Positions 48,930 through 64,000 of a stretch of 64,000 bases of DNA are shown here, in pieces. Position 1 is the stretch's first letter; every line of letters starts with the position of its first letter. This DNA is from Alcanivoracaceae bacterium (GTDB taxonomy: Bacteria > Pseudomonadota > Gammaproteobacteria > Pseudomonadales > Alcanivoracaceae). Location of the stretch: contig JARGPN010000001.1 of NCBI GenBank assembly GCA_029213045.1, positions 124,001 through 188,000 on the forward strand, in the 5' to 3' direction. The position numbers were made by a program, and so were the translations under genes. The notes beneath the pieces were generated by a model. The model was given only the letters and a program-made list of their open reading frames with translations, had not been told where the DNA came from and did not search any database.

Positions 48930-49031
48930 GGCATCGCGAAGCGACAGCACGCGCCCAGTTATCTAAAGCTGCTTGTTGAGATTGGCGTGTTGCAGGAAAA
49001 AACAGCGGGCAATGAAAAGCTTTTCCTTAAC
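48930..49031 (+). pseudogene. C-terminal fragment of a Fic-family protein
   Basis: An open stretch without a plausible start encodes GIAKRQHAPSYLKLLVEIGV then LQEKTAGNEKLFLN. This matches the C-terminal winged-helix part of Fic proteins (AKRQ-A--YLK-L---G-L----G-EKLF). No HPFxxGNG core is present nearby, so it is a fragment. The rest of the 48769-49130 gap holds nothing recognisable, except a 47-codon minus-strand frame (49106 to 48963) that begins after a GGAG. That frame lies antisense to this fragment and could be a real small gene. Confidence 0.5.
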
Positions 49032-49130
49032 CTCTGTTTCAGCAAGCAACCCCTTGGCATTAACAGTGTCCATTATCTGTTTTAAAAATACTTCGGAATT
49101 GCTCATCGCCAGCTCCAGCTCGATAAGGCA

Positions 49131-51875
49131 CTACATTATCGAGGAGAACCCTTTTAAATCTCTATTTTCGTGTACGTCATCATGGGCAATCAAAATGTAC
49201 TCCCATGGCTTGCCACCATTTTGGGTCAGGTAGTCTGTTGCATTTGCACACCACTTTTTGGCTGCCTCCGCTTTACTTTCTACCAAGGTGTCAGTGATGT
49301 CTCGGCGAGCTTTGGTTTCCACCATTATGACTCTGTCATCAAGTTCAGCGACAAAATCAGGAAGATACTCGCGATGATGAATGCCGTCTTTATAGTAAAT
49401 TTTGAATTGCCCACTAACAGGCTTGAACCACTTAATGGCTTCACGTTCCAGAATCAGAGCGAATGTACGCTCAGTGTCAGAATCAAACTTCTGAACATCG
49501 TAGAGACATCTACGAAAGCCACCAAAAAGCATTTTTCTAATTTTTCCTTTATCTTGCAAGGTGCTACGTACATTATGAATCTCTTTCTCACCAGTGGTAT
49601 AAGCAGCATCACACAAGGGCACAAAACCGGCTGTAATGGAGGTTTCATAGCTACTGGCTTTTTCCCAATAGTGTTCAGCCATTTGCGCATGTATGTTCTC
49701 GGCGATTCGCTTGCCAAAACCGAAGAAGATATTGTGTAGCTCATCTTCGCTGTATTCACGAATATCGCGAAAGAAATTGACTGATTGTGTCGCCAGATCG
49801 TAAATCAGCTCCGCATGTTCATCGTAGGAAATATCGTCATAGTCCACCAAATGTTCAACAATATAATCTTCTAAGCGGGTGTACTTCCGTTCGGGAAGCG
49901 AAGAGATGCTGACCTGCTCATTGGTCTGTAGACTCTGTGAAATCAACTCTCGGTTCGTCGGTTGAAGATTTAACTGTCCCATTTCTAACAAAAACGGCGT
50001 ATATCCGTAGGTGATTTCACCAGAAGGCATAACAACGATGCGCGGTATATCAATCGTTTGCTCAACCACTAGCACTGTCGCTTTTGCGATGACTTCTTGC
50101 AGGCTCACTTTTTCCATGTCTTCTAGCAAAGATTGTTGCTGCCCACTAAGTTGCTCAGAAACAGCTTTATATACCTCGGCTTGAACATCGTCATTCAATA
50201 AGGCTTTGCTAGTAGGTGCCTCATTCGGCTTGTTTTGATAGCTTTGCAGAACACGTAACGTGGTTAAAGCCACCTCCCGTTCAGTGACCCCGCTAAAAAC
50301 AGGCTTAGTAACCTCATCCGGTGACTTACCTGGAGCTGAATAATCGAACCCTGTGGCACTTTGCACAGACTTACCCGTAAACAAACCTTCCAAGCGAGAT
50401 GTTACCGCTACGCTATCTTTAGGTTGTTCGGTATCATCTTTATCCAGAATGACCTGACGTAAACGCAGAGGGTTGTTGGGATTATTGGCCTCATCAACAA
50501 TTTCTTGGAAACGATCATGTGCAACAATGTTTAGACGATCGACAGCATCCACACCCGTTCGCTTACCGTAGGGTAGGCGCAAGCCACGGCCGATCGACTG
50601 TTCAATAAGCGTTCTTGCATTTGCAGCGCGTAAAGGAACAATGGTGTAAAGGTTGGTAACATCCCAACCTTCTTTCAACATATTCACATGGATGACAATT
50701 TCGGTAGGTTCATCGACACTTTCGACAGCCAATAAGCGCAAAATCATTTCTTCTTCGGCTGCACCGCTTTGGGAGCTATCTACCTGAATGGCTTTGCCCT
50801 TATAGGCGCCATTAAAAAAACTGTCCGATTCGATCCGCTCCAGTAATTGCGCCGCATGTGTTGTGTCTCGCGCAATGACCAACATAAAAGGCTTTACCAC
50901 TTTTACGCTGTGTTGTTTCGCATAGGTAAACAACTCTAATTTAGTAGCTTCATGTAGTCGCACACCATCTTCCAGTTTTACCGTTTCTAGTCCTTCGGGG
51001 CTGTATTGTTTGGGGTCAAAATTACGTTGCGTGACTACGGCTGGCTCTTTTACGAATCCATCGTCCATAGCGCATGCCAGCGGGTAATCCACTATCACAT
51101 TTTTAAAGGGCACAGGGCCGCGATTTGACTCGGTAAAAGGCGTTGCCGTTAATTCCAAACCTAATCGTGGATTTAGCTCATTGATGGCACGCATTCCGGC
51201 ACTGGCTCGGTAACGGTGTGACTCGTCCATTAATAACACCAAGTCATCCAGTTCAGACAGATAATTGAAATAACTATCACCTAAGTATTCTGATAAGCGC
51301 TTCATGCGTGGAGCCTTACCACCACGCACTTCAGACACTATTTTTGAGATGTTAAAAATATTGATGCGCACTTCCTGGGCTTGACCAAATAAGTCTTGTT
51401 TAAGCTGGGCACCTTTTTGTTCGTAATTGTCTCCGGTAATCACTATCGGGCGATTGACTGCGAAATCTGCAATGCCTCTAAATACATACTTAGAAGATGC
51501 CGTATCATCAAAATCAGCAATTAATTTGTTATAAATTGTGAGGTTAGGTGCTAATACAAAGAAATTATTAATGCCATGAGCTTGATGCAAATAGCTAATA
51601 AATGCACCCATCAAACGAGTTTTACCCACACCCGTTGCCAAGGCAAAACACAAAGATGGAAACTCACGTTCGAAATCCGAAAGGGTAGGAAACTCGGCAC
51701 TCAAAGCTTTAAGCAAAGATTCAATATCACGAGATTGCTCTAGCGTATCCGGAGCGGACTCTATTGCCTGAGCTAGCGCAATAAGTGAATCTTCTTGAGG
51801 CTTTCGCAAACTCAAGCGACCAGTGATTGCTTTAAGAATTCGTGCATTTGTTGGGTTGATTGTATTTGCTGTCAT
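49131..51875 (-). CDS. Type III-like restriction subunit (helicase-nuclease, Res)
   Basis: A 914-residue superfamily II helicase with a C-terminal endonuclease domain, as in Res of type III systems. Helicase motif I is LATGVGKTRLMGA (about residue 81), motif II LMDESHRYRA (about 215), motif III ELTATPF and motif VI QSIGRGLRLPYGKR. The nuclease motif LPDFVAELDDRVIMVETKAR (about 840-860) contains D...ExK of the PD-(D/E)xK type. It is the last gene of the five-gene operon, 14 bases after mod. GC is clearly lower than in the genes left of 48.8 kb. Confidence 0.92.
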   Translation of the reverse strand: MTANTINPTNARILKAITGRLSLRKPQEDSLIALAQAIESAPDTLEQSRDIESLLKALSAEFPTLSDFEREFPSLCFALATGVGKTRLMGAFISYLHQAHGINNFFVLAPNLTIYNKLIADFDDTASSKYVFRGIADFAVNRPIVITGDNYEQKGAQLKQDLFGQAQEVRINIFNISKIVSEVRGGKAPRMKRLSEYLGDSYFNYLSELDDLVLLMDESHRYRASAGMRAINELNPRLGLELTATPFTESNRGPVPFKNVIVDYPLACAMDDGFVKEPAVVTQRNFDPKQYSPEGLETVKLEDGVRLHEATKLELFTYAKQHSVKVVKPFMLVIARDTTHAAQLLERIESDSFFNGAYKGKAIQVDSSQSGAAEEEMILRLLAVESVDEPTEIVIHVNMLKEGWDVTNLYTIVPLRAANARTLIEQSIGRGLRLPYGKRTGVDAVDRLNIVAHDRFQEIVDEANNPNNPLRLRQVILDKDDTEQPKDSVAVTSRLEGLFTGKSVQSATGFDYSAPGKSPDEVTKPVFSGVTEREVALTTLRVLQSYQNKPNEAPTSKALLNDDVQAEVYKAVSEQLSGQQQSLLEDMEKVSLQEVIAKATVLVVEQTIDIPRIVVMPSGEITYGYTPFLLEMGQLNLQPTNRELISQSLQTNEQVSISSLPERKYTRLEDYIVEHLVDYDDISYDEHAELIYDLATQSVNFFRDIREYSEDELHNIFFGFGKRIAENIHAQMAEHYWEKASSYETSITAGFVPLCDAAYTTGEKEIHNVRSTLQDKGKIRKMLFGGFRRCLYDVQKFDSDTERTFALILEREAIKWFKPVSGQFKIYYKDGIHHREYLPDFVAELDDRVIMVETKARRDITDTLVESKAEAAKKWCANATDYLTQNGGKPWEYILIAHDDVHENRDLKGFSSIM

Positions 51876-51889
51876 TTTATATCCCGCCC

Positions 51890-53551
51890 TTAGCCTTGTC
51901 CGTTATCGTCTAACATTTCATCTTGAAACAAACCACCTTGCGATGGATCGGGCTTAGGCTTTTCCTGCATGGGTAGGTTTTCTACATTTAAACTGTAATC
52001 GTCATGCCCATACTCACAGCGCGACAACACCATTTTGGGGATCTTTTTTAGTGTAAGGTTAGGGAAGCGATCGGCCTTGCAGCGAAATGCGCTGCAACAA
52101 ACCAGCACACTACAATCTTCACCCACTTCTTCACTCAACGCCTGTAACTGCTCAACAGAGAGCGTCTGCGTAGTGACATAAATTCTATCTTGTTCGGTGG
52201 AATAGCCATGATTCCACCATTTGGAGTCTGAAGGCGCGTACGTAAAGCCTTCTAGTTTGCATATGGCTTCGGCCAACATGGCGGCATCATAATCTTTGCT
52301 GATCACCCAGCGGCCCCAGCGATCTTGCTCTAATAGTGATGGGGCTAAACGGTAATAGCGGAAGCCACCACCACCTTGCCAGTTAACTGACTTGGTGATT
52401 CCGCCTTCATCCTCACCGTTAATCACTTTTTGAAGACGAGGGATAATATGCGTATGACAATGATCGCCAAGTTCAACCATTATCCACTTACGACCCATCT
52501 TATGGGCAACAGCACCCGTAGTACCCGAACCAGCAAAGGAATCTAAAACTAAATCACCAGGGTTTGTGGCGATATGTAAAATTCTTTCAATTAGCCTTTC
52601 TGGCTTTGGTGTACTAAATGCGTTTTCTGCCTTGTACAATGCATGCATTTCCTTTTTTGCTTCATCTGTGTGGCCTGCTTCTTCGTGGGGCCACCAAGTC
52701 CATGGTGCCATCCCCTCTATATCTTTCAAAAACTGAATTCGGGCTGGAACAGCATTTCCATCCTTACCAAAATATATTCGATTCTCTGAAAGTAGTTCTT
52801 TAAATTTCGGCTCTATAACTTTCCAACACGAACCTGCTGGTGGCGTATGAACTTTCCCTGTTACTGGAGATACTATTTCGTACATTTGATTAGGTCTATA
52901 ACCCTGCGCCGACAATGAAACTGACCGCCAAAGACCTCGAGGATCCTTGTTTCTATTTTTATAGACTTTTTTCTGTTTTTCACCCAGAGGAAGTTTATTT
53001 CTTATAGCCTTAAATTTATTTTTATCTTTTACATAAACAAGCACATATTCGTGAGCATCACCTATCGACTCTCTATTTTCCCTAGAATACCGTTTCTGCC
53101 AAACGTTCGTTGCTAAATAACAATCTCTGCCACACAACTCATCCATAACTACTCTAAGGTAAGGCATCTCTCGGTCATCGATAGACACCCAGAGAGATCC
53201 TTCATTAGAATCAAGCAGTCTCCAAATAATTTCTAGTCGTTCTTTAATTAAACTCAACCATATAGAATGCTCTACCCCATCATCATAGTGATCAAAGGCA
53301 CTTCCGGTGTTGTATGGAGGGTCTATGTAAATACATTTAACTTTTCCAATGTAATCCCGCTCTAAAGATTTTAGCGCCAGCAAGTTATCCCCAAAAATCA
53401 GCTTGTTATCAAAGATATCGGTTTCAGAAACTTTGTGGCTTGCATGGTAGGACTTCGACGGATCTTCCAATAAAATTCTTGGCTCTAGTTTCGGCCGTTT
53501 ATCTTTACCGATCCAAGTAAGTTCTAATTTAGTTTTGTTTTTACTACTCAT
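51890..53551 (-). CDS. Adenine-specific DNA methyltransferase (type III-like Mod)
   Basis: A 553-residue beta-class N6-adenine methyltransferase. Motif IV IDPPYNTGSAF (about residue 77) precedes motif I VLDSFAGSGTTGAVAHKMGR (about 335), the order expected for the beta class. The middle part (about 130-320) should be the target recognition region. The C-terminal domain (about 400-553) is long. It pairs with Res to form a type III modification-restriction unit. It lies 13 bases after the AIPR gene and 14 bases before res. Confidence 0.93.
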   Translation of the reverse strand: MSSKNKTKLELTWIGKDKRPKLEPRILLEDPSKSYHASHKVSETDIFDNKLIFGDNLLALKSLERDYIGKVKCIYIDPPYNTGSAFDHYDDGVEHSIWLSLIKERLEIIWRLLDSNEGSLWVSIDDREMPYLRVVMDELCGRDCYLATNVWQKRYSRENRESIGDAHEYVLVYVKDKNKFKAIRNKLPLGEKQKKVYKNRNKDPRGLWRSVSLSAQGYRPNQMYEIVSPVTGKVHTPPAGSCWKVIEPKFKELLSENRIYFGKDGNAVPARIQFLKDIEGMAPWTWWPHEEAGHTDEAKKEMHALYKAENAFSTPKPERLIERILHIATNPGDLVLDSFAGSGTTGAVAHKMGRKWIMVELGDHCHTHIIPRLQKVINGEDEGGITKSVNWQGGGGFRYYRLAPSLLEQDRWGRWVISKDYDAAMLAEAICKLEGFTYAPSDSKWWNHGYSTEQDRIYVTTQTLSVEQLQALSEEVGEDCSVLVCCSAFRCKADRFPNLTLKKIPKMVLSRCEYGHDDYSLNVENLPMQEKPKPDPSQGGLFQDEMLDDNGQG

Positions 53552-53564
53552 GTTTTAAATGCCC

Positions 53565-55268
53565 CTATGTGTTGGCCAATGCGGCCATTACAGGGCCTTT
53601 TAATGTTTGTAAATCGTTCTGGTTTTCAAATACTGATTTCGGAGACTTATCAAAAGCTTTCTTGTTAAATTCCGTGATAACTCGCTGAATAATGTTTTGC
53701 GCCTCAATTCCAACCAGGTTTTTTTGAACCAAGGTCAAAGCAACTTCTTGCTCAAGTTTTAAGCCGAATTTGCGACACATCACCAAATAACAAACCATCC
53801 AGCGTGAATGAGAAATAATTTCTTTATCTGTGCCTTGCGCATTCTTTACCTCGCGCGTAATTACCGAGATTACTTCCTGGCAAATTTGAACGGCTCGCCA
53901 CAAGACTCGAGCCTCTAATGTGTCAGGGAAAATGGACTTATAGGTTGATTCGTTTTCAGCAGTTTTTGCGCGTGAAAACAACTTCTTGCTGTCTTTTTTT
54001 GCCAAGGCCACAAGGTGTAATGACTCATCTGTAGAGTATGAGCAAGCCAGCGCCCGCGCTGCGAACTCTAAATTAAATGTTTCGTCATCCTGCAAACCAC
54101 CTTTGTAGCGATAATTTATTCCGCTATTGGCTAGAGTTTTTGCCCATTGTTGCTGGTTTTCATCCAAAGCTGCAAAGTCCACATCAGAAACTGCATTTTG
54201 ATTATTTCTAAACTGTGTAACAGATTCACCAAAACGGTCCGGAGCATTTTCTAAGCTAATGATTGTTGCCATAACCTTAGCTGTTGATTGGTTTTCATCC
54301 TCACCAATGGCATCGGCAATGCAACTAACAGTTTGAGCGCCATTAATTACTGACACGCCTCGTAGGCGAAATTTACCTAGTCGATTGGTTTCATCATGAG
54401 CTGATATTTGCTGTATTTCATCGCAAAGCAGCGTTACGCCATTATTGAAGTAAAAGAAGTTTTCAGGCGTGTTCGTTAAGGTACTAACTATATCGATGTT
54501 AACCGCTGTATTACCCTTAAATTGACGTATGTTGGCGTTGAATAGGTGGTCACCGTGCAGCGTTTTAAAGGCTTTAATTTGGTCTGCATCTAGCCCACCG
54601 TAGTAACAGGGGTAAGGCTCGGATAAAAAACCAAACTGCTCTAGCTCAATATCCAGCGAGATCGGAGCCGCTAGCCTTTCACTTAAATGGTATTGGTGGA
54701 AAGACTCTAATCCGGCATTAACAAAGCGAAGAAAATTTGTTCTGGCTGGTGAGGTAAAGGCGCTTACAAGATCCCCCATCATTCGCCGTCTATCATCCGA
54801 CAATGCGCTACCGGTATACACCAAAACGGCTTTTACTTGGCACACGCCAGAATCTAATGCACGATCAATAAGCGGTATTTTTGCTTGCAAGTGTTGATTG
54901 AAGCGATCGTATTGCTTACGCAATAAGTCTCGAATCCCATTCTCGAATTTATTCACATCTCCAAGCGCCGGTTCGCCGACACCTCGATCAATATATTTCG
55001 ACTGAATTAACCAAATAGTTTCGGTGGCATCAACGTAAACTGAATCAACTCCGTGATCATCTCCGCCATCGATAGAGGCTGTCACCGCATCCTCAAGGGA
55101 AGCGCCAACCTCAGAAACCAAATAATAAGCCGCCAATGCCTTAGAGAAAAAGTTTCGTTCTTTCGCAGTATCTCCAGAACCTGTACCTTCTATGAGCCCG
55201 TCAAACTTTGAATGAAGCAATTCGCACAATTGCATTAACTCTAATGGCTGAACTCCTATTTTAGCCAT
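53565..55268 (-). CDS. AIPR family protein (phage-resistance associated)
   Basis: A 567-residue AIPR-type protein. The family core is visible in FYFNNGVTLLCDEI (about residue 270), RLRGVSVINGAQTVSCIADA and FRNNQNAVSDVDFAALDENQQ. The N-terminal part (VDSVYVDATETIWLIQSKYI, about 70) resembles a PD-(D/E)xK-like nuclease strand, with QSKY as the putative Q-x-K. AIPR proteins were first noted in abortive phage infection. The ATG at 55268 shares a base with the helicase stop codon (TGATG), so the two are translationally coupled. The mechanism is not established. Confidence 0.85.
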   Translation of the reverse strand: MAKIGVQPLELMQLCELLHSKFDGLIEGTGSGDTAKERNFFSKALAAYYLVSEVGASLEDAVTASIDGGDDHGVDSVYVDATETIWLIQSKYIDRGVGEPALGDVNKFENGIRDLLRKQYDRFNQHLQAKIPLIDRALDSGVCQVKAVLVYTGSALSDDRRRMMGDLVSAFTSPARTNFLRFVNAGLESFHQYHLSERLAAPISLDIELEQFGFLSEPYPCYYGGLDADQIKAFKTLHGDHLFNANIRQFKGNTAVNIDIVSTLTNTPENFFYFNNGVTLLCDEIQQISAHDETNRLGKFRLRGVSVINGAQTVSCIADAIGEDENQSTAKVMATIISLENAPDRFGESVTQFRNNQNAVSDVDFAALDENQQQWAKTLANSGINYRYKGGLQDDETFNLEFAARALACSYSTDESLHLVALAKKDSKKLFSRAKTAENESTYKSIFPDTLEARVLWRAVQICQEVISVITREVKNAQGTDKEIISHSRWMVCYLVMCRKFGLKLEQEVALTLVQKNLVGIEAQNIIQRVITEFNKKAFDKSPKSVFENQNDLQTLKGPVMAALANT

Positions 55269-58147
55269 CAAACAACTTCCCATGTAATGGTAAACAAATG
55301 ATGCTCTTCGATTTTTTGATTCATCTTTTCTTCTAATACCGTGATTAACTCTTCACGCCTATCATCAACCTCATCTTGCTTATCAAATAGATCTCTGCGT
55401 TTTTTGTTTCGTAGTCGCTCCAAATCTTTCAAGCGTTTTTGCCAATGAAGCTTTTCGTTAAGGTCTGGAGCGACTTTCGCTGTTCTGCGAACCTCACGGA
55501 TCTCACGGTCGGTTTCTTTAATATCCTGTTCCAATACAACCTTAAGATCATCAGACCAAGCTTCTAGCTTTTCCACTTCTGCTTCGAAATACTGCAAGTT
55601 GCGATTAGTTATTTCCTCCAGTATTTCGGTTTTTCTACGCGACAGCTGATCTTGTAGGTGTGAGGCTTCTGAGAATGACGAATTAATAGCCTTAGAAATG
55701 GGAAACGCCATTAGCTTTTCGAGCACTTCAGGGCTCATTGCTTCGCTTTTGGCGGCATTATTGAAGCCTGTGAGCACGATGTAGTCTTCCGCTCGTTTCA
55801 TCGATTCAACGGTAAGCTTTGTGGCTTTGAGCTGGCCGGACTGCCCCTTGAGTGCTTGCACAACTGAAACCTTAGTAGGTTTAGCATCAGAGCAAAAAAC
55901 AAGATGTGTTGGTTTTAAGGTATGCGCTTTGGCGGTATTAATAACCCATTGCGCCAATGGGTGTTTTAAACGATAAAGATGGCATTCGCCTTTGCGACGA
56001 GGCAATACGTATTCGCCAGTAGAAATCTCTTCTGGTGCTTGAGGAGGTAAGTCTTTGATAATAAAACCTCCCTCTATCTCATTAAAGTGAGTACCTAGCT
56101 CGCTTTTTGTGAGTGCGAGCAACATTCGCTCATATTTATCTAGTGATTTATCTGTATCCACTTTGATGTTCTGTAAAACATCTTCATCAAAGTGCTCAAA
56201 AAGCTTTTCGCGCGTATTAACCATTTGCAGGTTTATTTCGTGGGCTAGATCCTCTTGAAGCTTGTCAAACTCCCGTTGAATATCATGAGCATCACGGTAG
56301 TTGTCGTAGATATTTTTAATTCGTCGCTCGAAATCGACACCACTTTCGATGGCGCCAAGTACTTCATCGGATGCACCAAATACACCATCAAAGATATTGA
56401 ATTTAAGCCTTAACAATTCGTGAACACGCTTATCAGCTTCATTGGTGGAATCAATGAAGTTCAATACAACCACGTCATGTTTTTGACCATAACGATGGCA
56501 TCGACCTATACGCTGCTCGATTCGTTGGGGGTTCCACGGTAAATCATAATTTATGACAAGCGAACAAAACTGAAGGTTTACACCTTCTGCTGCCGCCTCC
56601 GTTGCAATCATGATCTTGCCTTGATCACGGAAATATTCAACTAGCGCGGCGCGAGTATCGGAGGTTTTTGATCCGGTGATTTTGTCGCTTCCTGCATGCT
56701 TAAGCGTCCAATCTTTATAGATTTTCTTTGCTTGAGCATCATTATTAGTACCGTTGAATAATACAATGCCATCTTTGTATTGGCTCTTTTTTAGTGTTCT
56801 TAGCAGGTAATCTTGGGTTTTTCTCGATTCTGTAAATATGATGGCTTTCTCTTGCGCACCAATTTCGCTAAGTTTTTGGAATGCGATTTTTAATGCATCT
56901 AAGAGTTTCTCGCCCTTGGCGTTGTCACCGATGTTTTCAGCAAGTTCGATAAAGGCACCAAGCTCTTCTATTTCATCTAGGATAGACTGCCTATCGGTAA
57001 GAGGCGTAGAGTATGGGTCGTCGTCATCCCATTCCTCTTTAGTTTCGACAAAAGCCTCATATTCGGCTTCAAATGCTTTTGTTAGAGACTGCTCGGTTAG
57101 GCCTTCAAGTAGTCTTCTTCTAATAGTGTCTAAAGCACCAGCTATTGCGAATGATGATGAAGCCAATAGCTTCCACATCACCATTGAGATCAACTGACGT
57201 TGACCATCCGGTAATGCATTAAGATTGGGGCGACGCAAGTAACTGGAAACTAGTTGGTAAAGTAACTGCTCATTCGACGATGGCGTAAATTCCTCTACCA
57301 TGGGAATGCGCTTAGTGTATTTGACGTAAGCTTCGACATCTTTTCTTAAAGTGCGCTTGCAAACGGGCTTGATACGTTGCCTCAACTCACTAAACGAGAT
57401 GGCATCATTAATTCGCCCGTATTTAATGCGGAAGCTATCGAGATCGCCAAATATTTTTTCATCAATGATGCTCACCATTCCATACAATTCGAGTAAGGAA
57501 TTTTGTAGTGGTGTAGCAGTTAACATCACTTTATAGGTATTGCCGATGGCATCAGCAATAGCTTTAGCGATTTTATTGCCTTTTTTATAAACGTTTCTGA
57601 GGCGGTGCGCCTCATCGATTACTGCAAGATCCCACTGCGGGATCATTTGAATATCATCCGCTTTGGCTTTGGCGAATTGGTATGAGCAAATGACAACGCC
57701 TTCCTCAATATCGAAGGGATTCTTCTGGCCGTCCTTTTTAGCTTTTTTGTAGCTATCACCATCAAGGATTGTGGCATCAACACCAAATTTTTCTTGTAGC
57801 TCTTGATGCCACTGCTTGCGGAGGTTGGCCGGCACAATAATAAGAATACGGCGGCGTCTTTCAGCCCACTTTTGGGCGATAATAAGCCCAGCCTCAATGG
57901 TCTTACCTAGGCCAACTTCATCGGCCAAAATCACTCCGTTTGATAGCGGGTTACGAAAAGCGAATAGAGCTGCATCAACCTGATGAGGATTGAGGTCAAT
58001 CTGCGCGTCCATAATGGCGCCTGTTAACTTATCCTCGTCTTCACTATCGAGACGGCGGGTGAGTTGCCATGCGAAATACTGGGCTTGGTGCTTACTGTAT
58101 TGTTCCTTGCATGATTGGCCATTTGTTGAGTGCTCATCAATTTTCAT
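55268..58147 (-). CDS. SNF2-family helicase with C-terminal coiled coil
   Basis: A 959-residue Snf2/RapA-type DNA translocase. Walker A is ADEVGLGKTIEAG (about residue 76), Walker B VIDEAHRLRN (about 180), motif III LTATPLQNSLLELYG, and the second RecA lobe has IFTESRKTQDYLL and RIEQRIGRCHRYGQKHDV (about 550). Residues about 830-950 are rich in Glu/Lys/Arg and should form a long coiled coil ending in HLFTITWEVV. ATG at 58147 overlaps the regulator gene by 11 bases. Such helicases occur with DNA methylases in defence loci such as DISARM class 1 (DrmD), but no drmA/B/C genes are here. Confidence 0.9.
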   Translation of the reverse strand: MKIDEHSTNGQSCKEQYSKHQAQYFAWQLTRRLDSEDEDKLTGAIMDAQIDLNPHQVDAALFAFRNPLSNGVILADEVGLGKTIEAGLIIAQKWAERRRRILIIVPANLRKQWHQELQEKFGVDATILDGDSYKKAKKDGQKNPFDIEEGVVICSYQFAKAKADDIQMIPQWDLAVIDEAHRLRNVYKKGNKIAKAIADAIGNTYKVMLTATPLQNSLLELYGMVSIIDEKIFGDLDSFRIKYGRINDAISFSELRQRIKPVCKRTLRKDVEAYVKYTKRIPMVEEFTPSSNEQLLYQLVSSYLRRPNLNALPDGQRQLISMVMWKLLASSSFAIAGALDTIRRRLLEGLTEQSLTKAFEAEYEAFVETKEEWDDDDPYSTPLTDRQSILDEIEELGAFIELAENIGDNAKGEKLLDALKIAFQKLSEIGAQEKAIIFTESRKTQDYLLRTLKKSQYKDGIVLFNGTNNDAQAKKIYKDWTLKHAGSDKITGSKTSDTRAALVEYFRDQGKIMIATEAAAEGVNLQFCSLVINYDLPWNPQRIEQRIGRCHRYGQKHDVVVLNFIDSTNEADKRVHELLRLKFNIFDGVFGASDEVLGAIESGVDFERRIKNIYDNYRDAHDIQREFDKLQEDLAHEINLQMVNTREKLFEHFDEDVLQNIKVDTDKSLDKYERMLLALTKSELGTHFNEIEGGFIIKDLPPQAPEEISTGEYVLPRRKGECHLYRLKHPLAQWVINTAKAHTLKPTHLVFCSDAKPTKVSVVQALKGQSGQLKATKLTVESMKRAEDYIVLTGFNNAAKSEAMSPEVLEKLMAFPISKAINSSFSEASHLQDQLSRRKTEILEEITNRNLQYFEAEVEKLEAWSDDLKVVLEQDIKETDREIREVRRTAKVAPDLNEKLHWQKRLKDLERLRNKKRRDLFDKQDEVDDRREELITVLEEKMNQKIEEHHLFTITWEVV

Positions 58148-58385
58148 TTGAATCACCCTCAATTTCTTCTTTTATATGCTCTGCCAAACCACCAAGCTCC
58201 ACATTAAAGAACTCGCACAATTTATCGAGTACTTCAGTTGTAGTGTTATAGCCTTTTTGATTAGAGACTTTCGATAGTGTGGTTCTATGAATTCCAGTAG
58301 CCTTGGAGATTTCCTCTAAGGTGATACGTCGGCTCTCCTGGAACTCCTTTTCAGCAATTAGTTCTTTCAAGCGAAATCTGATCAT
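58137..58385 (-). CDS. XRE-family (Cro/C1-type) small regulator
   Basis: An 82-residue DNA-binding protein. The HTH is in RITLEEISKATGIHRTTLSKVSNQKGYNTTTEVLDKLCEFF (about 22-62). It is the first gene of the operon and its 3' end overlaps the helicase gene. GAGG lies 8 bases before the ATG. The promoter and a 34-base palindrome lie just upstream, so the protein probably controls its own operon. Confidence 0.88.
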   Translation of the reverse strand: MIRFRLKELIAEKEFQESRRITLEEISKATGIHRTTLSKVSNQKGYNTTTEVLDKLCEFFNVELGGLAEHIKEEIEGDSNEN

Positions 58386-58411
58386 TCAGGCGCCTCGTCT
58401 GTGAATGTTTA

Positions 58412-58439
58412 AATATATCAAAGTTCAAATATAGATCAA
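58412..58439 (-). promoter_or_regulatory. Promoter of the defence operon
   Basis: On the minus strand TTGATC (-35, 58434-58439) and TATATT (-10, 58412-58417) are 16 bases apart. TTTGAT/TTTGAA motifs repeat within it. Transcription would start about 20 bases before the XRE start codon. Confidence 0.6.
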
Positions 58440-58441
58440 AC

Positions 58442-58475
58442 ATTACAAATGATGCGCGTGCGCATCATTTGTAAT
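58442..58475. repeat. 34-bp perfect palindrome upstream of the XRE promoter
   Basis: Two perfect 16-base arms, ATTACAAATGATGCGC and its complement, are separated by GT. The palindrome ends two bases from the -35 box, a position suited to an operator or activator site. It lies 57 bases from the XRE start codon. Confidence 0.7.
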
Positions 58476-59050: not shown

Positions 59051-59190
59051 TTATGGGATTGAGGCCTTTGGGGGTATTTGAATCGTTTGTACATCAAAGG
59101 CATGGCTGGGTAGCCTCCGCGTTGATTTCCCAAAGCTCTATGGCTCAGTTGTTCACCGCATGTCGGTGATGCCCAGTAGTAGATAGACAG

Positions 59191-59226
59191 TACCCAATAT
59201 GGGTCATATAGTACCCATATTGGGTA
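59191..59226 (+). promoter_or_regulatory. Nested dyad operator before the HTH-nucleotidyltransferase gene
   Basis: TACCCAATATGGGT (59191-59204) and ACCCATATTGGGTA (59213-59226) are perfect inverted copies 8 bases apart. Each half is itself an ACCCA-n3-TGGGT palindrome. The site lies 32 bases before the GTG start and a T-run follows, so it could be an autoregulatory operator or, less likely, a terminator. Confidence 0.6.
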
Positions 59227-59258
59227 TTTTTTTGGCTCCATAATTCGAGGGTGCACAG

Positions 59259-59837
59259 GTGGCGACAAGCATAGGCGATGCGCTGTTTACTAAGGCGCAA
59301 CAAAAGGTGCTGGGGCTGTTTTTCGGTCGGCCGGATAAGAGCTTTTATGTCAACGAGGTGGTGCGCTTTGCTGCTATGGGCAAGGGTGTGATTAGCCGCG
59401 AGTTGGCTAAGTTGGCGGGCGCGGGCTTGTTGGTGGTGAGTAAGCAGGGCAATCAAAATCATTATCAGGCTAATGCCGCGTCGCCGGTGTTTCATGATTT
59501 GGTTGAGATCGTTAAAAAAACCTTTGGTGTGACTGGGGTGTTGCAAGCGGCGTTAGCGCCAGTATTGCCCCAGTGCGAGCATGCCTTTATTTACGGCTCG
59601 ATGGCCAAGGGCGGGGGCCATGCTGGCAGTGATGTTGACGTCATGCTGGTGGGGAGTGAGCTAGGTTACAGCGATATTATGCGCTTGCTAGAAGGGGCTG
59701 AAACGCAATTGCAGCGGCCTGTTAACCCGACGATCTATACACCCTCCGAGTTCGCTGAACGCTTGGCTGATGGGCAGAGCTTTGTAACGAAGGTGATGGC
59801 GCAGCCGCGAATGGATTTATTGCAGAGTGATGCTTAG
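59259..59837 (+). CDS. HTH-nucleotidyltransferase (MNT-type) protein
   Basis: A 192-residue protein. Residues about 10-70 are a winged helix (FYVNEVVRFAAMGKGVISRELAKLAGAGLLVV), and residues about 107-190 form a minimal nucleotidyltransferase domain with YGSMAKGGGHAGSDVDVML (G-S, then D-x-D at 125/127). Such proteins are antitoxin or regulator partners of HEPN-type proteins. It starts with GTG, close after a nested dyad that it may bind. The partner-like gene behind it is truncated. Confidence 0.8.
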   Translation: MATSIGDALFTKAQQKVLGLFFGRPDKSFYVNEVVRFAAMGKGVISRELAKLAGAGLLVVSKQGNQNHYQANAASPVFHDLVEIVKKTFGVTGVLQAALAPVLPQCEHAFIYGSMAKGGGHAGSDVDVMLVGSELGYSDIMRLLEGAETQLQRPVNPTIYTPSEFAERLADGQSFVTKVMAQPRMDLLQSDA

Positions 59838-60063: not shown

Positions 60064-61320
60064 CTACACCCACTCGCGTAGCGCTTTCTCTACTTGTTTC
60101 TTGACGATGTTCTGAACGCTCGCCAATGACGGCAAGTTGCCATGGGTATCCTGAAACGCTGCCAGCCAGTCGTCGGCGTTGTCATGCAGGCGCTCCGCCT
60201 GCGCGCGTATCAGTCGCTGGATCAGTCTGGGTGCCACGCCAAGCTGCGCGGCAAATTCGTCCCAGTGATTGCGATGCAGGTTTTGCGGGTCGTCCTTGCT
60301 GCCTACCGGCAAGGCCAGCCGATGGCTGACGCGTGGAATCGCGAGCGTACAGACCAGGTCGTAGAACGGCGCCAGTTGCCAGCCGCCGCCGTCCACGGCC
60401 AGTAGCGACAGGTTTTTCAGGTGGCCGTCGGCATTGCCGGCGAGGGCGTTGAATATCTGCCAGTTCGCCAGCGTTTGTATGTCTTTGGCCGGTTGTACCG
60501 AATGCTCGCGCAGCAGGTTGGCGATGTTGGCAAACGCGTCGGGTGAGCCGGTGTACTTGTCGGTGCGGGAGAGGCCTTGTGCCTGACACAGGTCCTCTTG
60601 ATGCAGGCGAACGACGTGGCCGTCATGCTGCTGGCGATCAAAGCGTTGCCCCAGCGACAGCAGGTGCTCGCCGAGGGTGATCAGTTCAACCGGTGCGGCG
60701 GGCAATGCCAGTTGTGTGGCCAGGTAGGTGGTGTAGGCCTCGACCAGTGGGACATTGCGCAGGTCCTGCACGGGTAGTTTGAGAATGTGGGTAGAGGCTG
60801 CGCCCTGTGCCGGCAGAGAGAATTGCCAGTTGCCGTTGTGCTGCATTGCTCGCACGGCAAGTTTGTCCTGGGCGCCGGCCAGTGACAGCCGTGGTGGCTC
60901 GTCGCCGGCCACCCACTGGCCGCGTCCGGTGCGGATGGCGTCTTCCAGTACCTGGTTGTCCAGTGTGGTGGCGCTGTCGGCCTGGGTCGTGGGCGCCTGT
61001 CCGTCGGGCAACAATTGCAGGGCGCCAGCGCAATCGCCGCCGAGCTTTTCGAGCAGCAGGAAATCGTCATCGGCGATGCCCAGTCGGCGTACCAGACGAT
61101 CGCGGGCGCCGCCCTCGGGCAGCAGGTTGGCAAAGAAATGGTGGCCGCGCAGGTCCGGCGGCAGAAAATCCCCGGTCTCGTTCAGGGGCAGGGAGCAGGA
61201 AATCGGCCAGCCGGACGTCAGCCAGCTTCCGTCGTAGACAAAGGCCATTTGCCGGGTGGGGTTGGCAATAAGCCGGCCTACTTGCTGATGCTGATACCAG
61301 ACCGTCAGGGTATTAGTCAT
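60064..61320 (-). CDS. hipA: HipA-family serine/threonine kinase toxin
   Basis: A 418-residue HipA kinase. The N-terminal subdomain LTVWYQHQQVGRLIAN and the FFANLLPEGGARDRLVRRLG block are typical. SLAGAQDKLAV (about residue 142) is the ATP-binding loop. Catalytic ALAGNADGHLKNLSLL and the metal motif APFYDLVCTLAIP (about 290-330) are intact. E. coli HipA phosphorylates glutamyl-tRNA synthetase and causes persistence. ATG at 61320 overlaps the end of hipB by 8 bases. GC is high, unlike the neighbouring restriction operon. Confidence 0.92.
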   Translation of the reverse strand: MTNTLTVWYQHQQVGRLIANPTRQMAFVYDGSWLTSGWPISCSLPLNETGDFLPPDLRGHHFFANLLPEGGARDRLVRRLGIADDDFLLLEKLGGDCAGALQLLPDGQAPTTQADSATTLDNQVLEDAIRTGRGQWVAGDEPPRLSLAGAQDKLAVRAMQHNGNWQFSLPAQGAASTHILKLPVQDLRNVPLVEAYTTYLATQLALPAAPVELITLGEHLLSLGQRFDRQQHDGHVVRLHQEDLCQAQGLSRTDKYTGSPDAFANIANLLREHSVQPAKDIQTLANWQIFNALAGNADGHLKNLSLLAVDGGGWQLAPFYDLVCTLAIPRVSHRLALPVGSKDDPQNLHRNHWDEFAAQLGVAPRLIQRLIRAQAERLHDNADDWLAAFQDTHGNLPSLASVQNIVKKQVEKALREWV

Positions 61321-61561
61321 GAGCGCGGCCCTTTCTTGGCCTGGCAATCAGGTCCACGCCGGCCAGCTGGGCGATCTCCAGCGCCAGGCCCAGCCGGGCG
61401 GTTTCCTTGCCGCGCTCCAGTTCGGACACAAAGCGGGTGCCGACGCCGGCAATTGCGGCCAGCTCCGCCTGGGTCAGGCCCTGAGCCAGGCGGGCAGCGC
61501 GGATCTGGCTGCCGAAGTCCTGCGCCGAGCGTATGGGGGGCGGGGGCTGGGTGGTTGGCAT
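61313..61561 (-). CDS. hipB: HipB-like antitoxin/repressor
   Basis: An 82-residue XRE-family protein. The HTH is in IRAARLAQGLTQAELAAIAGVGTRFVSELERGK (about 20-52), and the C-terminal GRAHD tail is short. It neutralises HipA and represses the operon. ATG at 61561 has AGGA upstream. Three evenly spaced GATC-centred palindromes upstream are its likely operators. Confidence 0.9.
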   Translation of the reverse strand: MPTTQPPPPIRSAQDFGSQIRAARLAQGLTQAELAAIAGVGTRFVSELERGKETARLGLALEIAQLAGVDLIARPRKGRAHD

Positions 61562-62457: not shown

Positions 62458-64000
62458 CTAGCAAACTGGAGCAGATGGACAGATGTTGGCATACGCACAC
62501 CGGCTGCAGTGTCTTCCCTTGCTCGGAGAAATTACTCCTGATAGGTAGTTGACGGCAGCCTTGAATGATTTCGTGCTTTCAATCCTTCTTGCTCCGGGAA
62601 CGTTATCGCTCTTATCTGACATAACATAATGTAAACTTAACTTCTTACTTCCTTGGACAAGTAAGCCCGGAACTACAGGTTTTAATATTGTCTGAGCGCT
62701 TGAAACGCCGGATCGACTAAATTTAATCATGGCAAATTCTACGCTGTGAGGATTCTCAAGAATGAATCCCCACGGCAATTGAATGGTGACACCGCCAACA
62801 ATGGATTTCGGCTCACAAAGTATTCCGCCCTTAGAGATAATAATCTTTATTAAATCTATTCCTTTCGAAAATGCCGTGTTTGCGTCTTTCCAAAGCTTCG
62901 GGTCTTCAACTTGATCTGGAAGGCCATATTCAGACCATATTTCGCGGGAAATCTCGTTGGGGTCAATCTGCTCTCCGCCGGCAAACCGCTTTAACAAGTG
63001 CATTATGGCCCATCGGGTTTGAATTGAAATGTCTATATCCGTCTCAGGCTTTAGCTTTAGAATCCGTGAGTACCAATACTGAAGTGAACAAGTAACATAA
63101 CTCCTAAAGTGCTCGTAATTAATTTCTGGTTCAGGGGTAAAGCGATTTACTGCAGGAGAAAGACTTTGTGGTAGATAATTTTCGCTGAAATCTACGTCGA
63201 GATACTTCTTTGGATAATGATCCCACTGAGGCGCGAAGTTATCTCGGCCGAACTGCCCGTCTTGATAAATATAAAGATGGTTTCTTGCCCGTGATACAGC
63301 GACATATAAAAGATTGTTTCTTTCGACCGCCTCCTCCATGTCATATTCATCCTTGTTACTCCCAAGTGACTCTGGAGGAACCATCGTCATTACATCGTCC
63401 TCAGGCCTCCAAGTCGGTGCCTTTGAGGAGTAATAGCCGCTACTCGCATACCCCAAGTGAACAGCATCAAACTCCAAGCCTTTGCTGCCGTGTACTGTAA
63501 GTAGTCTAACGCCGTCTAGAGCCTCGGCCTCTGGTGGCAGCTCTCGGCTTGCAAGCTCTTCACCAATTCTTTGCCGCAGGTGCTGGCGAATCAAAAAGCG
63601 GTAGAGACGGTAGTCCTTCGCATTTGCCGCGCCATTGCGAACCGCGTAGCAGAACTGCCAAAGAGCTAGTTTTGATACCCAAGCTTCAACTGAGTTCTCT
63701 TCTGTTCCGGGAACATTAAACCTGCTTTCCAGAAGTAGATCGCAGACAAGTGCCCATGTGCTAGATTGACGATTCCATTTGCCTATCAATTGATTGAGGT
63801 TTCTTATGGCCTGTTGGCCTTGCAAGGAAAGATCAAGGTGCTGATGATTAAGCCACCGGCCGCGCTGCAATGTTGGCCTGCTTTTGGTTTTTTCGAGAAG
63901 TGCTTCAATGTCCGCTAAAGGCATATCTAAACCATCTATGCCCTTCAGGCCGATTAGGGATTTTGGATTCCGCTCAACCAGAAGCTGCATTAGGCAATAA
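62458..64000 (-). CDS. UvrD-type helicase with Fe-S nuclease-like C-terminus (partial)
   Basis: The N-terminus lies beyond the window; 514 codons are visible and the frame stays open to the edge. Motif V is RLLTVHGSKGLEFDAVHLG and motif VI NNLLYVAVSRARNHLYIY, as in UvrD/PcrA. The C-terminal 230 residues resemble the PDDEXK_1/AddB-Cas4 type: a lone Cys in SYVTCSLQYWYSRI and three in CSRCAYANIC near the end, the usual four Fe-S ligands. The catalytic GxxD and ExK pair is not evident (IQLPWGFILENPHSVEFAMIKF), so the nuclease may be inactive. It may belong to an island that continues to the right. Confidence 0.85.
   Translation of the reverse strand, partial: YCLMQLLVERNPKSLIGLKGIDGLDMPLADIEALLEKTKSRPTLQRGRWLNHQHLDLSLQGQQAIRNLNQLIGKWNRQSSTWALVCDLLLESRFNVPGTEENSVEAWVSKLALWQFCYAVRNGAANAKDYRLYRFLIRQHLRQRIGEELASRELPPEAEALDGVRLLTVHGSKGLEFDAVHLGYASSGYYSSKAPTWRPEDDVMTMVPPESLGSNKDEYDMEEAVERNNLLYVAVSRARNHLYIYQDGQFGRDNFAPQWDHYPKKYLDVDFSENYLPQSLSPAVNRFTPEPEINYEHFRSYVTCSLQYWYSRILKLKPETDIDISIQTRWAIMHLLKRFAGGEQIDPNEISREIWSEYGLPDQVEDPKLWKDANTAFSKGIDLIKIIISKGGILCEPKSIVGGVTIQLPWGFILENPHSVEFAMIKFSRSGVSSAQTILKPVVPGLLVQGSKKLSLHYVMSDKSDNVPGARRIESTKSFKAAVNYLSGVISPSKGRHCSRCAYANICPSAPVC

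Follow-up and report, generated by a model that had tools for sequence, protein, structure and literature searches.

A putative mobile restriction operon with an exchangeable slot for a second defence gene

Do five closely packed genes form one defence machine, or are they a restriction operon that has taken up an additional defence gene? This question is raised by a locus within 64,000 nucleotides of the genome of an Alcanivoracaceae bacterium (GCA_029213045.1, contig JARGPN010000001.1, positions 124,001 to 188,000), the stretch that was analysed and that is called the window throughout. Five open reading frames (ORFs) follow one another from window position 58385 down to 49131, all on the minus strand, in the order XRE, SNF2, AIPR, Mod, Res:

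58137..58385, minus strand: XRE/Cro-type helix-turn-helix (HTH) regulator of 82 amino acids (PF13443 44 bits, PF01381 31.6 bits)
55268..58147, minus strand: SNF2-family ATPase, DrmD/RapA-like, 959 amino acids from the ATG at 58147 (PF00176 127 bits)
53565..55283, minus strand: AIPR/AbiU-family protein of 572 amino acids, the cargo of the slot described below (PF10592 137 bits against a cut-off of 25, PADLOC AbiU 106 bits)
51890..53551, minus strand: Mod, of the beta-class adenine-methylase type, 553 amino acids (PF01555 156.7 bits, PADLOC MTase_III 719.5 bits)
49131..51875, minus strand: Res, an SF2 motor with a C-terminal PD-(D/E)XK nuclease, 914 amino acids (PF04851 80.1 bits, PADLOC REase_III 667 bits)

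The XRE and SNF2 genes overlap by 11 bases (counted from the ATG; a TTG at 58162 is a possible alternative start of SNF2) and the SNF2 and AIPR genes by 16 bases. AIPR is separated from Mod by 13 bases and Mod from Res by 14. The ORF positions and the Pfam domain matches thus agree with a sequence-only reading of the locus, which had described five genes of one direction with overlaps or gaps of 13-14 bases and had taken them for one system. Our own reading, which we hold to be probable on balance, is that the locus represents a mobile restriction operon based on methylation, with a second defence plugged into an exchangeable slot.

The identical order of five genes was found in a Pseudomonadales bin (L002; here and below, L denotes loci and G genomes) and in Zhongshania aquimaris (L003), and the order SNF2-AIPR-Mod also occurs in the more distant loci L004, in which only the start of Mod is present, and L005. 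The arrangement therefore goes beyond chance. The proteins of L002 and L003 are 84-97% identical to those of the window except for Mod, which is 58% identical in L002 and 72% in L003. The three loci have a common unit at the DNA level:

49025..58470, no strand assigned: unit common to the window, L002 and L003, with unrelated flanks (blastn; homology from 58455 or 58470 to 49025-49026)

As the homology ends sharply and the flanks are unrelated, the operon appears to move as a unit. In this respect the notion of one system was upheld; it failed in so far as it would make all five proteins an obligatory machine, as the survey and the E. coli genomes described below revealed. The G+C content of the operon region is 0.41-0.45, compared with 0.47-0.61 across the remaining window (2-kb steps). 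The combination of SNF2, Mod and Res, here called the chassis, is often carried by plasmids: at E 1e-100, 46 plasmid records were matched, of which 28 are typed as conjugative. A planctomycete plasmid is among the chassis-bearing records, and a non-conjugative Deinococcus plasmid carries the order SNF2-AIPR-HTH-hypothetical-VapC-Mod-hypothetical-Res.

The identity of the fixed part was assessed with profiles and with alignment columns, from which all counts of catalytic residues in SNF2, Mod and Res were taken. Mod matches the Mod subunit of EcoP15I (4zcf_A) at 4.6e-44, and the order of its motifs, DPPY before FAGSGT, is that of the beta class. Its catalytic columns are kept in 33-35 of 35 rows and the remainder are gaps, with the exception of the tyrosine of DPPY, which is a phenylalanine in five rows. 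All 31 Res rows have the same residues in the columns of Walker A, DExH, PD and ExK. The similarity of Res to EcoP15I Res (4zcf_C) reaches 3.2e-07 and is confined to the 68 positions from 369 to 436; its score against phage P1 Res is 52 bits, whereas the Res of a sister chassis with a Mod of about 640 amino acids is nearer to P1 Res (215 bits). Two subregions are of special interest:

52561..53237, minus strand: variable middle of Mod (target-recognition region), in which DNA homology to at least one of the two close relatives is lost (blastn gap, protein alignment)
49245..49514, minus strand: Res endonuclease domain (PD...ETK), residues 788-877 (PF19778 20.3 bits, below the cut-off of 23.4)

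The PADLOC type III models, the homology to EcoP15I Mod and the invariant Res columns bear out the previous assignment of Mod and Res to a type III-like pair. In two loci, two Mod genes stand in tandem before Res (L055:7201-10459 and L074:7062-10402), which perhaps provides two specificities per Res.

The occurrence of the chassis was surveyed with a profile of the SNF2 protein, using thresholds of E 1e-100 for Gammaproteobacteria and relatives and of E 1e-200 for Pseudomonadota and Bacteroidota. Matches were obtained in 22 of 369 gammaproteobacterial genomes, 6 of 57 genomes of relatives, 19 of 398 genomes of Pseudomonadota and 22 of 345 genomes of Bacteroidota; the genome of the window is counted in the first three sets and that of L005 in the last. 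Altogether 79 loci were listed, 69 of which have this SNF2 and 35 of which have SNF2 together with a Mod of the window type; loci that are cut by contig ends or belong to other chassis types (Mod of about 640 or 1100 amino acids) are not among these 35. L054, whose genome was also matched by the SNF2 profile, was dropped as a duplicate of L002, and the places G1062 and G1019:C59 were not included. A Mod-type gene lies downstream of SNF2 in 59 of the 69 loci. Among the ten without a Mod call, L004 breaks off in the first part of Mod, L061 is a remnant that leads into Res, and the other eight extend to the end of a contig.

A gene between SNF2 and Mod is usually present, but its family varies. 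This slot holds cargo in 31 of the 35 loci, or in 27 of 31 when the locus of the window and three loci found through AIPR are left out. AIPR is the cargo in 13 of 35 loci (9 of 31 with the same exclusion), and the 22 loci without AIPR comprise 18 with other cargo and 4 with none. Families were assigned by Pfam and then by BLAST against reference cargos of our own, which were same-strand ORFs. The alternatives to AIPR include a SIR2 protein (Dsr2, 478 bits, in L066), an AAA+ ATPase with a subtilase (IetA/IetS, in L039 by PADLOC with 853 bits for IetS and 328 bits for IetA, and in L042 by Pfam), AAA_13 (PDC-S06, in L037), SMC-like ATPases (L036, L038, L069, L089, L094), AAA_21 (in L046 with DUF4276 as HEC-01A, 586 bits, and in L041), Schlafen AlbA proteins (L051, L080, L081), HTH-M78, Bro-N, RhuM, DUF3800 and others. 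In L036, L039, L078, L089, L093 and L094, a single slot holds at least two unrelated cargos; in L039, HTH-M78 and HepT-like genes stand beside IetA/IetS. In sister-chassis or contig-cut loci, SNF2 is followed by GmrSD (L043, L068) or by Fic (L044, whose contig stops short of Mod). The 44 slot genes with a family label all lie on the strand of SNF2, which follows in part from the same-strand origin of the reference cargos. The slots contain a further 12 unlabelled ORFs of at least 75 amino acids, 7 on the SNF2 strand (one of them HepT-like) and 5 on the opposite strand, the latter without a Pfam match. No DUF4391 protein turned up among the scanned slot proteins, although no search was aimed at it. 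A slot gene of 359 amino acids in L040 (L040:5034-6113) has no Pfam or PADLOC match and is a candidate for a new effector.

A second slot lies between Mod and Res. Of the 31 loci extending as far as Res, 4 have YhcG (DUF1016) there; L040 and L042 have a Zeta-toxin-like gene in this place, and L037 has a transposase:

L066:12452-13534, L089:13068-14216, L040:2852-3373, L042:5473-6021: second-slot genes, YhcG/DUF1016 nuclease or Zeta-toxin-like

The contents of the SNF2-Mod slot are exchanged. On a tree of SNF2 and Res, no fewer than 18 changes are required to account for the 15 cargo states, and 7 for the presence of AIPR. The loci L036, L039 and L046 illustrate this: their SNF2 proteins are 79-82% identical, and their cargos are AIPR with an SMC ATPase, IetA/IetS with others, and HEC-01A with DUF4276, respectively. 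In pairs with unlike cargo, the DNA aligns up to about the end of SNF2 and again from the start of Mod onward, but not in between (blastn). The target-recognition region of Mod is exchanged as well. In eight pairs, three of which had been chosen for other breaks and have the same AIPR or a closely matched cargo, homology is lost for about 510-770 bases in the middle of Mod and resumes through Res. For the operon of the window, this break covers 52561-53237 in the comparison with L002 and 52612-53123 in that with L003.

A natural comparison is offered by E. coli. Among 5426 complete genomes, 29 contain a close relative of the chassis SNF2 that is encoded on the Salmonella plasmid pR18.1595_113k. 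Strain LS45 has the order HTH-SNF2-AbiD-AIPR-Mod-Res (AbiD 238 bits), an arrangement with an added Abi gene that is present in public E. coli genomes and is unnamed. Strain CFSAN064036 carries the same chassis with a Res that is 99.3% identical, an Abi protein that is 67% identical, a different Mod middle and no annotated AIPR. The AIPR gene of LS45 is present to at least 80% in 19 E. coli genomes, and in five genomes only its last third is found. Two of these five were viewed, and SNF2, Abi, Mod and Res are annotated as whole in both. In one of the truncated strains, AIPR is reduced to its C-terminus while the rest of the operon is 99.7-99.8% identical to that of LS45; identity to the LS45 proteins is 99.8% for Mod and 99.9% for Res. 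Because AIPR is absent from 22 of 35 loci and is truncated in E. coli, it looks like a plug-in and not like an obligatory subunit. A more distant search yielded 149 E. coli genomes with partial SNF2 matches of 60-80%, two of which were viewed. A related chassis with a Mod of about 1040 and a Res of about 1120 amino acids after SNF2, and without cargo, was observed at L137:8984-18401 and L128:11766-21518; one of the two is part of an E. coli chromosome, where it adjoins tRNA-Leu (strain M8), and the other is carried by plasmid pEC316_2.

From this material we infer the following scheme for the operon. Mod would methylate adenines at a site set by the swappable target-recognition region and would thereby mark self DNA, and Res together with Mod would translocate on, and cut, unmarked DNA in the manner of type III enzymes. 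The SNF2 protein, a RapA/DrmD-like motor, would most likely assist Mod and Res in restriction by clearing or remodelling DNA or proteins. The operon is probably repressed by XRE, acting at a palindrome upstream of the XRE gene. The slot gene would be an exchangeable effector, and AIPR, a probable PD-(D/E)XK nuclease, would form a separate second line of defence when restriction is evaded.

Several findings weigh against this reading or limit it. The slot is optional, being empty in four of the 35 loci. When the cargo labels were shuffled on the tree, at least 22 changes were needed (mean 24.9, 500 shuffles), compared with the 18 observed; cargo is therefore often exchanged yet also inherited, and the exchange is not free. 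E. coli MB46 has the SNF2 and Abi genes and neither Mod nor Res in the stretch viewed. Together with the truncated AIPR genes beside intact Mod and Res, this shows that AIPR can be lost alone and that the chassis also decays. With two small HTH profiles, an HTH gene was detected upstream in only 6 of 33 chassis loci, and the HTH genes of annotated chassis plasmids are of dissimilar sequence, so that XRE is not a fixed part and was rejected as a universal partner. A Mod of the window type without an SNF2 match occurs in 7 of 26 genomes (G042, G057, G136, G183, G232, G305, G328). Three such loci (L107, L110, L111) are on long contigs, and SNF2 is therefore not strictly required; elsewhere it may lie beyond the contig. 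Lastly, the same genomes supplied control loci that are type III-like but lack this SNF2. A gene of at least 200 amino acids on the same strand that ends within 250 bases before Mod was present in 27 of 35 chassis loci and in 4 of 8 control loci (p 0.19), or in 23 of 31 and 4 of 8 when the window and the AIPR-found loci were excluded (p 0.22). With a control group of eight, the chassis thus has no significant excess of such neighbours. It stands out by the types of cargo family and by how many there are, and not by the presence of a neighbour.

The control loci bear directly on the best of the alternatives, according to which the cargos are autonomous defence modules that share the operon for expression and mobility, and the slot is a hot spot for hitch-hikers that have no link to SNF2, Mod or Res. 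This is a serious contender, which we nevertheless rate at somewhat below even. The neighbours in the four control loci are DUF1828 (twice), Abi_2 and a gene without a Pfam match. A defence-like gene also lies upstream of the window-type Mod in L107-L110, where SNF2 was not found (L107 and L110 being on long contigs). In addition, several slots hold two or more unrelated cargos, as listed above. Dsr2 and IetA/IetS are active alone in other hosts, and their activity alone together with the cargos beside Mod and Res without SNF2 favours autonomy. On the other side, cargo is kept along the branches of the tree more than shuffled labels would be, and the labelled slot genes all share the strand of SNF2, in part by construction; both observations are compatible with co-regulation alone. 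Among the remaining loci without SNF2, L112 has a gene of 379 amino acids without a clear family before Mod, and L113 is truncated where its contig stops. The neighbour of 764 amino acids in L111 was rejected as cargo because it is a radical-SAM protein. At L151:5499-10886, a type III-like Mod that has no such SNF2 with it is preceded by Schlafen-like, TOTE primase-helicase and Abi_2 genes.

Alternatively, the chassis might gate its cargo: SNF2, Mod and Res would keep the effector inactive, or would signal to it upon encountering unmodified DNA or inhibition, and AIPR would be released or switched on as a suicidal or DNA-degrading effector. We regard this only as a tentative possibility. A precedent is PrrC, which is held by its type I restriction-modification partner; passages of PMC3710099 describe it along with a proposal on HEPN toxins in restriction-modification operons. 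Some of the cargos are indeed toxin-like, namely AbiD in E. coli, the HepT-like protein in L039, Schlafen proteins in L051, L080 and L081, and Fic beside SNF2 in L044. However, the cargo families are structurally unrelated, so that a common contact is hard to picture, and some cargos probably act alone. Moreover, AIPR is truncated in five E. coli genomes, the two viewed of which keep SNF2, Abi, Mod and Res. A more general form of sensing, in which SNF2-Mod-Res would be a chassis whose SNF2 or Res activates or releases whatever effector occupies the slot when it meets unmodified or protected DNA, seems rather unlikely to us. If it were true, a single methylation-based detector of self and non-self would drive outputs as unrelated as a DNase, an NADase, a protease and a HEPN RNase.

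A different proposal concerns the nature of AIPR itself. It could be an RNase toxin with an N-terminal HEPN domain that causes abortive infection by cleaving RNA. A passage in PMC3506569 calls the AIPR N-terminus HEPN, and AbiU, the PADLOC match, is by name an abortive-infection family. The structural model of the N-terminus points elsewhere and makes an RNase improbable:

54657..55265, minus strand: N-terminal domain of AIPR, residues 7-209, modelled as a PD-(D/E)XK fold with D72, D76, D80, Q94 and K96 (model predicted local distance difference test score 88.3)

The model of residues 7-209 has the helix-strand-strand-helix-strand order of restriction endonucleases. Five structures matched it at Z scores of at least 8 in VIA, namely FokI (10.2 and 9.6), HamA (8.1), N.BspD6I (8.1) and MspJI (8.0), all of which we take to be nucleases of the PD-(D/E)XK class. 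The best match to FokI has a root mean square deviation of 4.0 over 155 aligned residues, and its Z score exceeds the 7-8 that the tool states to be usual for models lacking a clear match; Shedu, Card1 and Can2 were found at a Z of about 5, amid unrelated proteins such as glutaminase at 5-6. With Foldseek, neither AIPR model had a match at E 0.001, and the AIPR profile had no significant relative by sequence among solved structures. The motif D-x-G-x-D...Q-(S/A)-K is present in 17 of 17 AIPR rows. On the basis of the VIA scores and the motif, the modelled N-terminus is likely a PD-(D/E)XK nuclease, and the earlier suspicion that a QSKY motif hints at a nuclease gained substance through the nuclease-like fold and the conserved motif.

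The gene family also leads a life of its own. AIPR was found in 12 of 369 gammaproteobacterial genomes and resides in this chassis in 2 of them. In nine of the other ten, the locus was viewed and neither such an SNF2 nor such a Mod stands beside AIPR; the tenth genome, G226, was judged by the genome-wide absence of a match to this SNF2. The sequence-only reading had proposed to look for co-occurrence of SNF2 and AIPR with mod and res, and the two partners differ: SNF2 is usually beside Mod (59 of 69 loci), but AIPR usually lies outside this chassis (10 of 12 genomes). One of the other AIPR loci, L116, is an MZA system by PADLOC (MzaB, MzaC, MzaE), and L117-L120 have similar gene sizes in the same order, a likeness by size and order alone. 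Membership of the window's AIPR in MZA was rejected, since it scores 55.1 bits against MzaE (cut-off 1050). The slot of Hymenobacter glacieicola contains two different AIPR genes in tandem (L005:9983-13561).

It is quite improbable that the five proteins are a single obligatory machine with AIPR as the second nuclease subunit of a new restriction complex. The tight spacing with its overlaps and the preservation of the whole unit in L002 and L003 would fit such a machine, but AIPR as an obligatory subunit was rejected because of the 22 of 35 loci without it and its natural truncation in E. coli, which leaves Mod and Res intact.

The SNF2 protein had been likened to DrmD of DISARM, and the likeness held: it scores 669 bits with the NCBIfam model DrmD_b and 662 bits with PADLOC DrmD, its profile matches RapA structure chains at 1.1e-44, and its motif columns are kept in 34 or 35 of 35 chassis rows, the remainder being gaps. 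A divergent DISARM system is nonetheless most improbable and was rejected, as DrmD_b stays below its cut-off of 950, Mod and Res match type III models, and no match to PF09369 (MZB) was obtained in the genome of the window, which is 99.92% complete; the control was positive in 8 of 14 genomes, and DrmA and DrmC were not sought. The MZB domain is a mark of DrmB and related proteins.

Upstream of XRE, two features were noted:

58442..58475, no strand assigned: perfect 34-base palindrome with arms of 16 and a spacer of 2, candidate operator (longest arm in 2000 shuffles, 12)
58412..58439, minus strand: weak sigma70-like promoter match, 9/12 (sequence match to a sigma70-like site)

The palindrome was also detected by a terminator scan, and its outer edge coincides with position 58475, where the sequence-only reading had placed the end of the region. 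It is not kept in L002 or L003, in which the longest perfect arms are 4, and was therefore rejected as a conserved operator; it may serve as an operator in the window. The claim of one promoter could not be sustained. The upstream region holds a single 9/12 match, and sigma70-like sites number 12, fewer than the shuffle mean of 19.4, so that the match is not evidence of function. A relation of the regulator to MADS was also considered. XRE matches the mad1 model with 18 bits, and no other mad model is among the matches listed (the 25 best matches for Mod and SNF2); MADS comprises a MAD methylase, a kinase and other partners besides an HTH protein. Further upstream, 59189-59228 on the plus strand forms another long inverted repeat of 16 pairs, with T after it, and adjoins an ORF at 59259.

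Two neighbouring genes complete the picture of the window. A HipA-like kinase toxin gene lies at 60064-61347 on the same strand, about 1.6 kb upstream of the operon (HipA_C 160.6 bits, Couple_hipA 81.7 bits). From 62458 to 64000 and onward, a gene for a helicase-nuclease with UvrD C-terminal and PDDEXK_1 matches runs past the end of the window (L059, 1112 amino acids), a further sign of a defence island.

If the operon is indeed a restriction unit with a plug-in second defence, what looked like a one-off operon becomes part of a widespread modular family, in which both the DNA target and the second-line effector are exchanged within a fixed restriction chassis. The slot would then point to defence genes, and its unlabelled occupants, such as the gene of 359 amino acids in L040, would be candidate anti-phage effectors. 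The E. coli chassis with whole and with truncated AIPR make the dependence of the effector on the restriction-modification enzyme directly testable.

How does this operon compare with known systems? With the type III enzymes EcoP1I and EcoP15I it shares the order of DPPY before FxGSG, a swappable Mod middle, a Res with an SF2 motor and a C-terminal PD-(D/E)XK nuclease, and the adjacency of mod and res; it differs in the added SNF2 and slot genes and in a Res that is only distantly related. In common with DISARM, a DrmD-related SNF2 helicase is encoded beside a methylase, but here the DrmD score is below the cut-off, the genome yields no MZB domain, and Mod and Res are type III-like. The slot gene belongs to the AbiU/AIPR family PF10592, as does MzaE of MZA; in contrast to MZA, neither a MutL nor a Z1 partner was found among the eight window proteins scanned. 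A constant core with varied effectors is also a property of Lamassu, CBASS and type III CRISPR, systems with swappable effectors, whereas the core here is a restriction-modification unit and a signal to the effector is only conjectured. A further parallel is seen in restriction-modification operons with embedded second-line effectors (PrrC and HEPN, RhuM and DOC toxins). In the passages of PMC3710099 that treat them, HEPN-linked toxins are spread across diverse operons, whereas here one chassis receives many unrelated effectors at one place. AIPR genes are common in restriction-modification operons according to passages of PMC2292703 and PMC3506569. A search of the literature under open licences found no published name for the make-up SNF2-AIPR-Mod-Res, in line with the statement of the sequence-only reading that it knew no named system with AIPR in this place. 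Both the idea of effectors within restriction-modification operons and the presence of AIPR in such operons have already been published.

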